This document shows, piece by piece, positions 17,009 through 22,610 of a stretch of DNA of 64,000 bases (its first letter is position 1; each line of letters starts with the position of its first letter). The notes below the pieces were generated by a model that had not been told where the DNA came from, made no database searches, and was given only the letters and a program-made list of their open reading frames with translations. Where the stretch lies: positions 310,001-374,000 of the forward strand of contig NZ_NWUS01000002.1 in NCBI RefSeq assembly GCF_014048475.1, read 5' to 3'. Origin of the DNA: Bombella favorum (GTDB lineage Bacteria > Pseudomonadota > Alphaproteobacteria > Acetobacterales > Acetobacteraceae). A program made the translations under genes and the position numbers.

Positions 17009-18436
17009 TCATTTCCCATCCTGCCCGTCACGTTCCGATGATGCGGCAGACCGGTCTTCCTGTGTTACGCCAAGCTGCTTGAGCTTACGGTGCAGGGCGC
17101 TCCGCTCCATGCAAACAAAATTGGCTGTCCGGCTGATATTACCACCAAACCGCATCAGCTGGACCTGTAAATATTGTGTCTCGAACTGGTCTCGTGCTTC
17201 CCGCAAAGGCAGGCTCATTACATCAGCATCCGCCGTCAGACAGGTCATAGACGGGGCACCCTCCCGCACGACCTCCGGCAACATGTCCGCCCGGATGACA
17301 TTCTGCGCCTCGCCATCCCCGCTGGGGGCCAGAATAAGCATCCGCTCCATCAGGTTCCGCAACTCACGGATATTGCCCGGCCATTCATAAGTCTGAAGGC
17401 AAGCCAACGCATCCACAGCGAGCGTCCGAAGCGGCAAACCGGAGGAACGGGCGCAACTTTCCAAAAAATGCTGTGCCATGACCGGAATATCCTCCGGCCT
17501 CTCCGAAAGGGCTGGAACCTGCAACGGCACAACGGCCAACCGATAATACAGGTCCTCCCGAAAGCGGCGATGGGCAATTTCAGCCTGAAGGTCCCGGCTG
17601 GTAGTAGCCAGTACCCGAACATCCACCTTCACGCTATGACTGCCCCCGAGACGCTCGAACGTATTGACCTGCAAGGCCCGCACGATCTTACCCTGCGTCT
17701 CCAGCGGCATATCCGCCACTTCATCCAGAAGCAAAGTCCCCTTATGGGCACGCTCCAGAAGACCCGGACGCCCCGGACGGTCACCTCCTCCCTCAACACC
17801 GAAGAGTTCCTCTTCCAGATGTTCCGGGGCCAGAGCGGCGCAGTTCAACACCACAAACGGGCCTTCTGCCCTTTTGGATTCGGCATGAATCAACCGCGCT
17901 ACCACTTCCTTACCCACACCCGCTGGCCCGCTGATCAGCACACGGGAATTAGTGGGTGCTACCCGGCTAATCTGCCCTCGCAGCGCATTAACCAGTGCAC
18001 TGCTGCCCATGAGCGTGTTCTGCTCACCAGCCCGCAGACGCAGCTCGGCATTCTCTTTACGCAATCGGGCGGCCTCTAGCGCACGCCGGACAATGACCAG
18101 AAGACGATCCGACTGGAAGGGCTTCTCCAAAAAATCATAAGCCCCTTGGTGCAGGCTGGAGACGGCTGTCTCGATCGTTCCATGACCGGAGATCATGATG
18201 ATGGGAATATCAGGCCGCTCCTCCCGGAACAGGCTTAGCAGAGCCATGCCATCAAGACGGGAATTCTGAAGCCAGATATCCAATATCACCAACGAAGGTC
18301 GATTCTCACGAAACGCCCGTATGGCCGCATCCGCATCCGCAGCACCACAGGTGACATAACCATCATCCTCCAGAATCCCGGCCAGCAGGAGACGGATATC
18401 CGGCTCGTCATCAACGATCAGAATTTCATGCTCCAT
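17009..18436 (-). CDS. ntrX: nitrogen-related response regulator NtrX
   Basis: A 475-residue regulator: receiver domain with D9/D10, phospho-acceptor D53 (VILDIW) and the LEKPF lysine; AAA+ domain with Walker A GPAGVGKE and Walker [13 protein letters not shown]; and a Fis-type helix-turn-helix at the C-terminus ([24 protein letters not shown]). Between ELFGVEG and LLERAHKG the GAFTGA loop that contacts sigma-54 is absent, as in several alphaproteobacterial NtrX proteins, which fits sigma-70 rather than sigma-54 control. It follows ntrY by nine bases, with GAAGG upstream. Its kinase is NtrY. Confidence 0.95.
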
Positions 18437-18445
18437 GGGATACCT

Positions 18446-20806
18446 TCATGCTCCGCTTGCGCCCTCTGCTGCAAGCTCCTTCTCCGCCAGCGGGAAACTC
18501 AGTGCCACCAGGGTACCAGCTGTTCCCACCTCGCCAGTACCGGCGAGTGCCTGACGCTCCTCCTCCGTCAGGGACCGCAGATGCAGCCGCCCCTTATGAG
18601 CCTCCATCGCCCGATGTACGATAGCCAGCCCAAGCCCAGTCCCCTTCTCCTTATGGGTAACATAAGGCTCGGTCAGACGTTGATGCTCCCCAGCAGGTAG
18701 GCCAGCACCATTATCAGCAACGCCAATGATTGCCGCTCCATCCTCAAGCGTCAAGCTAAGGACAATCCAACCCAATATTGACCGCCCCTCTCCGATACGC
18801 CGTTCTGTCATCAAGATGGCGTCCGCTGCATTCTGTAGCAGATTGATAAGGGACTGACCAATCAGGCGATGATCACACCGCACCATAACCGGCCCGCCAG
18901 CGGGAACGTCCAACCGATAAGCAATCTCTGGATGGGCATTCTGCTGGAGGAACATGGCATCCCGGCATAGGCGAACAAGGTCATACTCGGCCATTTCCGG
19001 CCGTGGCATACGGGCAAAAGATGAAAACTCATCCACCATACGCCCAATATCACCCACCTGCCGAACGATCGTGCTGATAAGCTGGTCGTAAATTTCCGGG
19101 TCGCTCACAATTTCCTTATGGAACCGCCGCCGCAGCCGCTCCGCAGCCAGCTGGATAGGCGTCAGCGGATTCTTGATCTCATGGGCAATACGGCGGGCCA
19201 CATCCGCCCATGCGGCCTTACGCTGGGCAACCTGCAACAGGGTAATATCATCAAACGTGACAACATAACCCGCCGTGTCCTCATGTCCGTTCTGGTCCGA
19301 CACAGCACATACAGACAAAGTACGCCCAGCCCCAGCACCGCCACCACCACCCGGACCGCCCGGCGCACGGGCACTGTCGGTGTCGATCTGAATTTCAGCG
19401 CAATGCTCTCGGCCGGGATAATCCCGAACAGCCTGAAGCAGCTCAGCAAATTCCGGCACACAGTCTACAAGCGGACGGCCCTTAGCGGCCTCTAGGTCCC
19501 GCTGAAGAATGAAAGAAGCGGCCCGATTGGGAAGCTCGAGATTCTGGTCATGATCTAGCCCGATCACACCGGCCGAAACACCCGCTAGAACGGTCTCCGT
19601 AAAACGGCGGCGTTCATCAATCTGATCATAAGCCAGCATTAGCTCCGAGCGTTGGCTGGCAAGCTGGCTGGCCATCAGGTTGAAGGCACGGGACAGGGTC
19701 ACCAGTTCATCCTCCCGGCTCCCCCGGCCCTCCACCGGGACACGGGCTGTCAGGTCCCCTTTAGAAATACGACGTGCCGCCCAGATCAACAGACTGAGCG
19801 GGCGGGTAATCCTATTGGCCTGCGACAAACCGCTGAGCATCCCCACCGCCAACACTAATAGGCCCATCAAAGCCAGAATAACGACAAGCGTTAGCTGGGT
19901 CTTGCCACGATTATTGAGCATCCGCTGGTAGTCCTGCACCAGCGTGTTTGTCCGTGTCATGTGATGAAGAATATCCGGGTCCACCGGCCGGGTTATGACC
20001 AGCATCAGGCCCGAATTACCCCCTAGCGAGACCACACCCCGCACAAGTTGGGCCTCTGGCTGGTCCAGCAGCACGACCTCACCCGTCCGGGCCATAGCAG
20101 CTACGGAACGGGGGGGGAGTTCTTTTTCCGGGTCGCCCGCCCGGATGGCCATCAGCCCCCCCGTAGCGATAATCTTGTAAGTGATCGGGTTAAAGATGAT
20201 GGCATCATTCAACCCTCGTTCCGTCACCTCATCTTCCAAAAGAGCCTGAAGGCGGGGCTGGTCATGGAATAAGTCCGTTCCATGAGCGAACATCTCATCG
20301 TTCTGAACCGTCAGAAGCGTATTCGCCAATGCGAAGGCTTCCGTTCTCGTATTCTCGTTATGCTCCCGCAGATACCCCGCCGCTACAGACCGGGCCTCGC
20401 TCAAAGCCGTATTGACCCGGTTTGAAAACCAGATTTCCACACCATAATGGAAGAATAGGGCGGACAGTGCCCCTACCATCAGCGCCGGGGCTACAGCCAC
20501 CACACCAAAAAGCATAACAAGCTGACTATGCAGCCGCGCCCCTGCCTGCCCCATGCGCCGCTCGGCGAGCATACGGCCAATCTGCCGTACCCCAGCAGCC
20601 GCAATGAGCAGAAGCGTGATGAAATCCAGCAGAAAAAGAAGAGCCTGTGCCCTCGGCACCCGGGCCAGAGACACCCCTCCCGCAAGGACGATAAACGTCA
20701 CGAAGGTAAGAACCAACGCTATGACTGTCAGCACCACCACACCATCGGGGCTGGTCAACCGCCCGATGGAGGCCCGTATCTTGCCGGCAAGACGTCTGAT
20801 CGTCAC
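18446..20806 (-). CDS. ntrY: sensor histidine kinase NtrY
   Basis: About 786 residues: several N-terminal transmembrane helices with a periplasmic or membrane sensor region, a HAMP linker (NRITRPLSLLIWAARRISKGDLTARVP), a PAS-like segment, then HisKA with RIAHEIKNPLTPIQLAAERL (phospho-His about 541) and HATPase_c motifs NLLQNAADAI, VADNGAGLP and GTGLGLAIVHR. It phosphorylates NtrX. I placed the start at GTG 20806, which has an AAGGGAAGAG site; a TTG at 20824 is in frame but poorly spaced. The gene follows the shortened ntrC almost without gap. A Gly/Ala-rich insert sits between PAS and HisKA. Confidence 0.94.
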   Translation of the reverse strand: MTIRRLAGKIRASIGRLTSPDGVVVLTVIALVLTFVTFIVLAGGVSLARVPRAQALLFLLDFITLLLIAAAGVRQIGRMLAERRMGQAGARLHSQLVMLFGVVAVAPALMVGALSALFFHYGVEIWFSNRVNTALSEARSVAAGYLREHNENTRTEAFALANTLLTVQNDEMFAHGTDLFHDQPRLQALLEDEVTERGLNDAIIFNPITYKIIATGGLMAIRAGDPEKELPPRSVAAMARTGEVVLLDQPEAQLVRGVVSLGGNSGLMLVITRPVDPDILHHMTRTNTLVQDYQRMLNNRGKTQLTLVVILALMGLLVLAVGMLSGLSQANRITRPLSLLIWAARRISKGDLTARVPVEGRGSREDELVTLSRAFNLMASQLASQRSELMLAYDQIDERRRFTETVLAGVSAGVIGLDHDQNLELPNRAASFILQRDLEAAKGRPLVDCVPEFAELLQAVRDYPGREHCAEIQIDTDSARAPGGPGGGGGAGAGRTLSVCAVSDQNGHEDTAGYVVTFDDITLLQVAQRKAAWADVARRIAHEIKNPLTPIQLAAERLRRRFHKEIVSDPEIYDQLISTIVRQVGDIGRMVDEFSSFARMPRPEMAEYDLVRLCRDAMFLQQNAHPEIAYRLDVPAGGPVMVRCDHRLIGQSLINLLQNAADAILMTERRIGEGRSILGWIVLSLTLEDGAAIIGVADNGAGLPAGEHQRLTEPYVTHKEKGTGLGLAIVHRAMEAHKGRLHLRSLTEEERQALAGTGEVGTAGTLVALSFPLAEKELAAEGASGA

Positions 20807-20820
20807 GATCTCTTCCCTTC

Positions 20821-21561
20821 TCAACGCTCCCCGGACCGTGATCCGGAGCGGGGGACGATAATGTGAAGTTCCTTGATGCGTTTACGCAACGTATTGCGGT
20901 TCAACCCCAGAAGGGAAGCTGCCCGAAGCTGATTCCCACCCGTATGATGCAGTGCCATAGTGATAAGCGGCCTTTCTACCGCTCCCACCACGCTGCCATG
21001 CAGATTGCAGCTGCCCGCTTCCAGACCAGCCCGCACATAACTGCGCATGACAGGTTCGAACATCGCAGCCAGACCTCCGTTCCGATCACTGGAAAGAGCC
21101 CGCACAGCCCGCAGGCGGTCCGGCCCGAGGCACTGCGCCACGGGGAGAGAGGCTAGCCAGTGTTTCAGACCATCCTCCAACCCACCGTGCCGCAGCAGCG
21201 TGGCCTGATCATGGCGGCTCGCCACCACAATACGCACGGCCTCCTCCCGCTTGACCTGCGGCCTATGTGCCAAAAAGGCAGCAAAACGCTTTTGCAGTTC
21301 CGGGCATAGGCAATCCAGCTCATCCAGCAGCAGCGTGCCACCACGGGCCTGCTCCAGCCACCCATTGCCCGCCGTGCCAAATAACCGCTCTTCCCGCAGG
21401 GCGCGGGGTACGGCTGTCAGCCCCGCAACAACAAAGGCTCCTTCTGAGCAAGGACTATGGGCGTGAATCCGCTGGGCTACATCCAGCCGCTCCTGCGAGC
21501 TGGCACCATACAGAAACAGAGGCCGCATCGCCCGGACCTCACGGGCCGTTTGCTCGCCCAT
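20821..21561 (-). CDS. severely shortened NtrC-like protein (no receiver, degenerate AAA+)
   Basis: Only 246 residues against about 480 for NtrC. The receiver domain is absent. The AAA+ part begins mid-domain: the Walker A is replaced by LYGASSQERLDV without the catalytic lysine, GAFTGA is lost (ERLFGTAGNGWLEQARGG), yet Walker B-like GTLLLDELDC remains. The C-terminal Fis-type helix-turn-helix is intact (ALHHTGGNQLRAASLLGLNRNTLRKRIKEL). It sits exactly where ntrC belongs, between dusB and ntrY, and its ATG overlaps the dusB stop (TGATG). It could still bind DNA, perhaps as a passive repressor or via Fis-like action; phosphorylation and sigma-54 activation look impossible. Confidence 0.85.
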   Translation of the reverse strand: MGEQTAREVRAMRPLFLYGASSQERLDVAQRIHAHSPCSEGAFVVAGLTAVPRALREERLFGTAGNGWLEQARGGTLLLDELDCLCPELQKRFAAFLAHRPQVKREEAVRIVVASRHDQATLLRHGGLEDGLKHWLASLPVAQCLGPDRLRAVRALSSDRNGGLAAMFEPVMRSYVRAGLEAGSCNLHGSVVGAVERPLITMALHHTGGNQLRAASLLGLNRNTLRKRIKELHIIVPRSGSRSGER

Positions 21562-22610
21562 CACGCTGCGTGCCGGGCTAGGGCACCTTCTCGGTCACGC
21601 ACGATGCCAGCGGCAATAGCTTCATCATAAAACTGCTCGAGCAAAGCGATGACAGCCGGGGCTGTATCCAACCGGTTCACCTCCGCCCGGAAAGCCGCAG
21701 ACCCCGGAAGCCCGGCGGAATACCACGAGACATGTTTACGAGCGAGGCGCAGGCCGGGCCGCTCACCGAAATAATCCATCATCATGTGATAATGCTTCAG
21801 GACGATTTCTTTTTCCGTTGCGAGATCAGGGTCTGGCACATCCACACCACTCCGCAAGGACTGGACCAACTGGGCCGGGAACCAAGGCCGCCCGTAGCAG
21901 CCACGCCCCACCATCACCCCATCTGCCCCTGATTCTGCCAGTGCCTGACGGGCCGTAGCCATGCTGACAATATCACCATTAACAATCACTGGCAGCTTTA
22001 CGGCATCCTTGACCTTACGGACGAACTTCCAATCCGCATGGCCGTTGTAGAACATCTGACGAGTGCGCCCATGTACCGTAATCAGGCGGATACCCACATC
22101 CTCGGCAATACGGGCTAAAGTGGGAGCATTGAGATGTTCATGGTCCCAGCCCATCCGCATTTTCAGGGTGACGGGCACATCTACAGCCTTAACGGTGGCC
22201 TCTAGCAAACGGGCAGCCAGCCTCTCATCCTTCATAAGGGACGAACCGGCCATCTGACCAATAGCCACCTTTTTGACCGGACAGCCAAAATTGATGTCTA
22301 CAACATCTGCTCCACCAGCCACGGCAATCTTTGCTGCCTCACCCATAGCCTGCGGGTCGCACCCGGCCAATTGAACGGCATTAACGCCACCAGCCCCCGC
22401 ACTGCGGGCCATGCTCAGGGTTCTCTCATTCTCCCGCACCATCGCCCAAGAGGCAATCATCTCCGACACGACAAGCCCCGCCCCCAGCTCTCTGGTCAGT
22501 CGGCGGAACGGCAGATCCGTAACACCGGACATAGGTGCGAGGATGACGGGGTCATCAATCACGCAGCCCGGCCCCAGAGTGATGGGCGGCAGAGGAATCG
22601 GCATTGGCAT
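21561..22610 (-). CDS. dusB: tRNA-dihydrouridine synthase DusB (NifR3)
   Basis: A 349-residue TIM-barrel flavoenzyme that reduces uridine to dihydrouridine in the tRNA D-loop using NADPH. Motifs: [12 protein letters not shown] at the FMN-binding start, [22 protein letters not shown] with the catalytic Cys near residue 111, [24 protein letters not shown] and [10 protein letters not shown]. In alphaproteobacteria it is nifR3, the first gene before ntrBC. Here its TGA overlaps the start of the short ntrC, and ntrB is missing. Confidence 0.96.

Follow-up and report, generated by a model that had tools for sequence, protein, structure and literature searches.

What has become of NtrC in Bombella favorum? 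The usual alphaproteobacterial gene order is dusB-ntrB-ntrC-ntrY-ntrX. In the window, the whole 64,000-nucleotide stretch that we analysed from this genome (G000; 1.97 Mb, 7 contigs, 100% complete), dusB, a short ntrC-like gene, ntrY and ntrX are tightly packed, all on the minus strand. The dusB (nifR3) gene for tRNA dihydrouridine synthase B (21561..22610) scores 379.7 bits against TIGR00737, with a cut-off of 293.3. The short gene (20821..21561) is followed by ntrY (18446..20824), a sensor kinase with PF19312 NtrY_N, HAMP, HisKA and HATPase domains, and by ntrX (stop-to-stop frame 17009..18445), whose product is 72% identical to a reference NtrX. The short frame is open from 20821 to 21564 on the minus strand, and its 246 codons are counted from the ATG of a TGATG stop/start overlap with dusB. 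This overlap, to which an earlier note on this DNA had drawn attention, recurs in all ten Bombella-group loci, as TGATG in six and TAATG in four. The ntrY start in turn overlaps the ntrC stop. An alternative ntrY start is the GTG at 20806, which has a purine-rich run upstream. The product of the short gene is 99% identical to its Bombella intestini counterpart. Because the same gene recurs in 9 other records, from Bombella, Parasaccharibacter and another member of the Acetobacteraceae, and in Gluconobacter morbifer, its reduced form is beyond chance.

The reduced protein is recognisably a piece of NtrC. Its Pfam domains are HTH_8 (E 2.3e-13) and, as a weak match, the sigma-54 activator family (E 8.6e-11, 42.2 bits). 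Among NCBIfam models ntrC scores highest, with 92.5 bits, far under the cut-off of 558.6. A receiver with a phospho-acceptor aspartate is absent by both Pfam and alignment. Alignment with the full-length NtrC of relatives shows that the GAFTGA loop is deleted, that sensor II and the lid are gone and that the Walker A lysine is lost; the degenerate P-loop reads GASSQERL (21484..21507, minus strand), versus GESGTGKE in full-length NtrC. A Walker-B-like GGTLLLDEL is kept (21316..21342, minus strand). The Fis unit of dimerisation helices and helix-turn-helix (HTH_8; 20860..21075, minus strand; residues 164-235 in 247-residue numbering) is intact, with GNQLRAASLLGLNRNTLRKRI in Bombella and GNQIKAAAMLGLNRNTLRKKI in full-length NtrC. 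These results bear out the absences listed in the earlier note and its Fis-type helix-turn-helix. Its description of NtrC as cut down to the DNA-binding end goes too far, as about 130 conserved residues of the AAA+ (sigma-54 activator) core persist (21145..21534, minus strand; PF00158 at residues 11-140, 42.2 bits). AlphaFold modelled the complete protein poorly (pLDDT 56), so the case for a folded AAA+ remnant comes from conservation only. This N-terminal remnant is constrained and probably without ATPase activity.

The proteins with which NtrC normally works did not turn up elsewhere in the genome. As had been noted, ntrB is absent from the dusB-ntrY locus of G000, and an NtrB query against the whole genome returned other kinases only, at 27-32% identity. 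The rpoN gene (PF04552), present in 122 of 150 family genomes, was found neither in G000 nor in the 2 other Bombella genomes of the search. PF00158 has six matches in G000: NtrX (184.4 bits), the ntrC remnant (42.5 bits) and four others, none above 40.2 bits, for which AAA_2 or AAA models give higher scores. GAFTGA is missing from NtrX here, and a motif alignment shows the same for the reference NtrX and for 7 more NtrX proteins of the Acetobacteraceae. A full-length ntrB or ntrC, or an rpoN, elsewhere in G000 was thus sought by genome searches and not found, and the inventory of PF00158 proteins agrees with the sigma-54 independence that had been proposed. The genome has a single PII gene, followed by amtB (PF00909, 414.9 bits).

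Selection on the reduced gene is strong. Among ten Bombella-group sequences, pooled dN/dS (Nei-Gojobori counts, Jukes-Cantor correction) is 0.081 for the whole ntrC frame, 0.032 for the Fis unit and 0.069 for the AAA+ remnant (residues 14-142), rising to 0.155 in the linker and 0.222 in the last 12 residues. The neighbours give 0.039 (dusB), 0.082 (ntrY) and 0.053 (ntrX); the ntrC and ntrY frames were taken from stop to stop, and their whole-gene values take in some upstream codons. Although the values are rough, as synonymous differences between G000 and L013 reach 0.74-0.80, where the correction fails, they exclude neutral drift. The gene is therefore no pseudogene. A check suggested earlier, for purifying selection on the helix-turn-helix only, gave a different answer, with the AAA+ remnant under constraint too.

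How the reduced form arose can be read across the family. We found dusB in 144 of 150 Acetobacteraceae genomes and examined what lies downstream of it in 60, comprising the 40 best dusB matches and 20 picked by hand. In 39 of these, ntrB follows dusB, and in relatives NtrYX adjoins full-length NtrBC. In eight loci ntrB is missing and NtrC has no receiver (G079, G037, G022, G008, G149, G046, G126 and G085), the frames being 324-356 residues long in seven and 463 in G085, where the frame runs back into dusB. A short form in frames of 249-293 residues occupies nine loci (G000, G118, G032, G101, G070, G061, G136, G054 and G131) as well as the ten named loci, among which L008 and L010 are the contigs of G118 and G032. 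One genome, G025, has a helix-turn-helix-only protein of 95 residues, and in three (G029, G116 and G066) the ntrC gene is gone and dusB lies directly before ntrY. Throughout, from full-length NtrC to the shortest form, the helix-turn-helix sequence is near-invariant in alignment.

In a FastTree phylogeny of linked dusB, ntrY and ntrX from 64 taxa, all 21 genomes with a reduced or lost gene form one clade (support 0.98). Its sister is G048 (1.00), which keeps ntrB and the receiver and is missing GAFTGA. Some inner nodes of this tree are weak (0.01, 0.42 and 0.56), its genes are themselves linked to the ntrC locus, and the tree omits four cut loci (L117, L141, L133 and L118) as well as L008 and L010, which are the same contigs as G118 and G032. 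Since G025 is nested among receiver-less genomes, its helix-turn-helix-only form arose from an NtrC remnant. As G066 stands apart from G029 and G116, two losses of the gene are probable. The helix-turn-helix-only form is known from G025 alone, and among the 397 genomes of a wider search the genus of G025 has no second member. Among individual assemblies, ntrY of G126 (L119) appears split in two overlapping frames and is whole in its congener G046, by frameshift or sequencing error, and ntrC of G093 (L133), whose assembly is fragmentary and 79% complete, is likewise broken into two frames that overlap. In the 1.7 Mb genome of G210, 99% complete, there are two PII genes, but at E 1e-9 nothing matches the NtrC DNA-binding unit; ntrC may have been lost independently here, outside the Bombella clade.

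The state of GAFTGA is associated with that of rpoN. Among the 55 genomes with a readable NtrC at the locus (the 60 loci less G093, with its broken frames, G014, whose contig ends before ntrC, and the gene-less G029, G116 and G066), GAFTGA is intact in 28, of which 26 have rpoN and 2 do not, and changed in 27, of which 8 have rpoN and 19 do not (Fisher p 1e-6, kinship ignored). The rpoN-negative state of eight genomes (G117, G122, G126, G131, G135, G136, G142 and G148) was deduced by elimination. Three groups (G030/G117, G073/G142 and G013/G040/G122), with 7 rpoN-negative genomes between them, have a full-length NtrC with changed GAFTGA. The exceptions are G135 and G114, where GAFTGA is intact and rpoN was not found (the assembly of G114 has 580 contigs and is 87% complete, whereas that of G135 is not fragmentary), and G060, with GAFSGA and rpoN present, and G048.

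Six reduced genomes that retain rpoN (G085, G149, G025, G079, G008 and G037) encode one other receiver-less activator with intact GAFTGA; such a match is absent from the seven rpoN-negative reduced genomes searched (G000, G022, G046, G101, G061, G054 and G070). Sigma-54 can thus outlast the departure of NtrC from it, persisting for another activator. This PspF-like activator may be the last client of sigma-54 in those genomes. The extra activators (L182-L188) also keep Walker A in the six genomes read, and G048 (L186) has a match of the same size, whose motifs were not read by the script. RpoN itself scores clearly lower in G037, G048, G079, G025, G085, G149 and G009 (E 6e-50 to 2e-57) than most other RpoN matches (1e-61 or better), and RpoN of G008 is split, which suggests relaxed constraint on sigma-54.

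The part of NtrC that has been kept resembles Fis. The best sequence match of the Bombella protein in the PDB is Fis (E 1.5e-8), and a model of residues 160-246 has four helices (pLDDT 83.7) in the Fis four-helix dimer/HTH fold. In a Foldseek search with the Fis-unit model, the top 24 rows are all Fis, at TM about 0.5-0.7 and with E. coli Fis as the best matches, the lowest E being 0.0097 and none reaching 0.001. The protein scores 46.7 bits against the NCBIfam Fis model, under the cut-off of 99. Fis of E. coli shares with it the four-helix dimer/HTH unit and the place after dusB, as the E. coli K-12 order is dusB then fis. The Bombella protein differs in having about 160 extra N-terminal residues and in descending from the local ntrC. 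At 246 residues it is also far from the size of stand-alone Fis, about 98 residues, which is approached only in G025 (95 residues). There the Fis unit stands alone about 100 bases past dusB, with an ATGA overlap between its gene and the likely ntrY start. The best PDB match of the G025 protein is Fis (E 5.5e-12), an NtrC domain following further down (E 1.5e-4), and the protein is identical to the NtrC remnant of G022 at 54 of 91 positions and to E. coli Fis at 30 of 87. That G025 acquired a true fis horizontally is not favoured, given the position of the gene between dusB and ntrY and its closest likeness, which is to a neighbouring NtrC remnant. The proposal of a sigma-54-independent, Fis-like regulator thus gains from the PDB match, the purifying selection and the failure to find rpoN.

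Where might such a regulator act? Each of the 29 reduced genomes has a [C/T]GT-N12-ACG stretch before its PII gene; the stretch ends in TGGCACG in 26 and TGATACG in 3, and CTTGC stands 6 bases before it in 23. As the anchor was picked by eye and with a regular expression, the letter invariance of this block is partly built in. Of these genomes, 18 were read at the dusB locus, and the other 11 (8 Bombella, 2 of genus g101 and 1 of g54) were called reduced by genus and a match to the DNA-binding unit. The strict dyad CGT-N12-ACG occurs within 150 bases in 27 of the 29 (G136 and G250 have TGT) and in 1 of 24 other PII-gene upstreams, with a chance expectation of 0.016 per upstream. These 24 come from 12 genomes and mixed PII types, one (G132a) being only 75 bases long, and the contrast is confounded with phylogeny because the reduced genomes form one clade. 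No dyad lies upstream of the PII gene of G048, whose full-length NtrC is without GAFTGA, or before the divergent PII gene of G029 and G116, which keep NtrX and have lost the NtrC gene.

The PII-gene upstreams were also compared in pairs. The best 32-base windows beat 1000 of 1000 shuffles for G000 against G025, G022, G149, G061 and G054, and for G025 against G054. The pair value was reached by 1 shuffle in 1000 for G000-G037 and G025-G101, by 3 for G000-G101 and by 5 for G000-G079; the G000-G046 pair did not rise above its shuffles (204 of 1000). For eight pairs with non-reduced upstreams, 14 to 964 shuffles in 1000 reached the value, the lowest pair (G025-G048) matching outside the block. The best window of G000 against G025 falls in or near the divergent gene when 330 bases are compared, and in the block when 150 are. 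Across the G000 genome the exact site has one match, so a wider regulon is not visible; with up to 3 mismatches there were 145 hits, versus 225 for a reversed control, and a genome-wide dyad regulon was discarded.

The block may carry a trace of an older promoter. A -24/-12-like element, TGGCAYG-N4-TTG, precedes one PII copy in each of six relatives (G123, G042, G001, G056, G132 and G071) that have rpoN and an intact GAFTGA, and this copy ends in TGxxAL as in Bombella; two further TGxxAL-ending copies (G042 and G123) are without the element. It occurs in none of the 29 reduced genomes. Since these keep only the -24-like part, the -24 half seems to have been kept and the -12 half to have gone. 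TGGCACG now forms part of a conserved dyad, and a -35-like TTGC hexamer precedes it by 18 bases. The strict Fis core is G-N13-C. The dyad is G-N14-C, and the strict core is not present. Together these patterns make glnK-amtB a likely target of reduced NtrC.

We also considered a strict co-loss of PII and NtrC. At E 1e-20, 27 of 30 genomes showed a PII match, and those without one were the three that have no ntrC. This pattern was weakened by the divergent PII of G029 and G116 (about 56 bits) and by G210, with two normal PII genes and no NtrC match; in G066 a PII gene was not found. The divergent PII proteins of G116 and G029 (L250 and L251) compare with about 100-120 bits in others, and in G029 an apparent amtB start, judged by eye, follows the divergent PII gene.

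We consider it reasonably probable that NtrC left sigma-54 and was pared down in place to a Fis-like regulator that acts at glnK-amtB with sigma-70. Loss of the GAFTGA loop would have come first, so that sigma-54 polymerase was no longer driven, and loss of ntrB and the receiver would then have ended phosphorylation control. The AAA+ motor would have eroded next, losing P-loop, lid and sensor II in Bombella and the whole domain in G025, with the Fis unit retained under strong purifying selection. The domain losses, the selection in the Bombella group, the clade with its graded states and the conserved promoter block are computed results, as is the failure to find rpoN; DNA binding, the target, the use of sigma-70 and the sign of regulation we infer. 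The Bombella product would be a constitutively competent dimeric DNA binder, with the CGT-N12-ACG dyad of the glnK-amtB promoter as its candidate site alongside sigma-70 RNA polymerase. The old -24 element TGGCACG may have been reused as an extended -10 (TGG-CACGAT), 18 bp past the -35-like TTGC hexamer. In this register the protein would repress, and transcription is predicted to start about 7 bases after TGGCACGAT. Alternatively, it would activate, should the -10 be situated some 10 bp past the dyad. Control could be exerted through the level of the protein or through contact of the AAA+ remnant with PII or a nucleotide. The remnant is dispensable for keeping the site, as G025 has the block without it.

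Other explanations would assign the gene a different fate. It could be a relic in slow decay after the loss of rpoN, open only through dusB-ntrY translational coupling, while NtrYX runs nitrogen control, and the earlier note had raised both decay and a takeover by NtrYX. In its favour, three sampled members of the clade (G029, G116 and G066) no longer have the gene at all, and the stop/start overlap with dusB could keep the frame open. Against this stand the low dN/dS values of the frame (0.08) and of the Fis unit (0.03), which come close to that of dusB, together with a helix-turn-helix near-invariant across the forms of NtrC. Where the gene has been lost, dusB and ntrY are still neighbours, and coupling therefore does not require it. 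We regard decay as very improbable. The takeover gains no direct support, as NtrYX is present beside full-length NtrBC in relatives and the glnK-amtB block tracks reduced NtrC and not NtrX, in a contrast confounded with phylogeny.

An unlikely but more serious alternative casts the protein as a general architectural factor of the nucleoid, Fis-like and with many weak sites, instead of a nitrogen regulator. Fold and sequence similarity to Fis, the position of fis after dusB in E. coli and the stand-alone 95-residue version in G025 would all suit such a role. This reading does not account for the block upstream of the PII gene that tracks the reduced gene, nor for the constrained N-terminal remnant in Bombella, which Fis lacks. 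We give a somewhat smaller chance, and thus a low one, to the idea that NtrX or another factor binds the glnK-amtB block and that reduced NtrC modulates NtrY/NtrX or PII through contacts of its AAA+ remnant. Such a function is suggested by ntrY and ntrX directly after the gene, and by a remnant that stays constrained despite the lost P-loop lysine. However, G029 and G116 keep NtrX without a block before their divergent PII gene, G025 has the block but no AAA+ remnant, and the block is missing in relatives with NtrX and full NtrC.

Among known systems, NtrC (NR-I) of the NtrBC pair shares with the reduced protein its descent, the dusB-[ntrBC]-ntrYX locus and a homologous AAA+ remnant and DNA-binding unit. 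It differs in that Bombella is without receiver, P-loop lysine, GAFTGA, lid and locus ntrB, and rpoN was not found. TyrR, DhaR, HupR and VpsR-type homologues retain the central AAA+ domain. The dusB-ntrC neighbourhood reportedly has a role in an argument on the origin of Fis made by Morett and Bork. According to PMC10274813, Caulobacter NtrC has no GAFTGA, is reported to act at sigma-70 promoters, directly activates glnBA and has a DNA motif related to that of Fis; R. capsulatus NtrC is likewise missing GAFTGA, with sigma-70 use reported. Like the Bombella protein, both are freed from sigma-54, but the same paper has them using a phospho-acceptor aspartate and an ATP-binding AAA+ domain, whereas Bombella lost the receiver and the P-loop lysine (PMC10274813). 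Loss of GAFTGA with sigma-70 use is described for TyrR, DhaR and HupR in PMC3162934, and altered or lost GAFTGA with sigma-70 action for these and VpsR-type bEBP homologues in the available parts of PMC3162934 and PMC10274813, which do not describe stepwise domain loss in place for them. A descent of Fis from NtrC was proposed by Morett and Bork (1998), as cited in PMC7166090 and PMC7482072.

An in-place graded series that ends Fis-sized beside dusB, with a paired change of promoter, appears to be new; it is unreported in the accessible literature on rpoN and ntrC of acetic acid bacteria, on nitrogen regulation in Bombella, on NtrC of Gluconobacter, and on Fis, NtrC and dusB, within which subscription journals are little covered. 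One could envision, somewhat short of an even chance, that acetic acid bacteria independently repeated the proposed origin of Fis, through living intermediates in Bombella, Gluconobacter and their relatives to the stand-alone protein of G025, and that the target promoter switched sigma factor in parallel, reusing its -24 element. Because one family holds full-length, receiver-less, motor-eroded, helix-turn-helix-only and lost versions at the same address, the proposal that Fis came from NtrC becomes directly testable with living proteins. The family also offers a natural series in which to follow the passage of a sigma-54 activator, along with its promoter, to sigma-70. For Bombella and its kin, our reading predicts how bee symbionts would regulate ammonium uptake without NtrBC or sigma-54.
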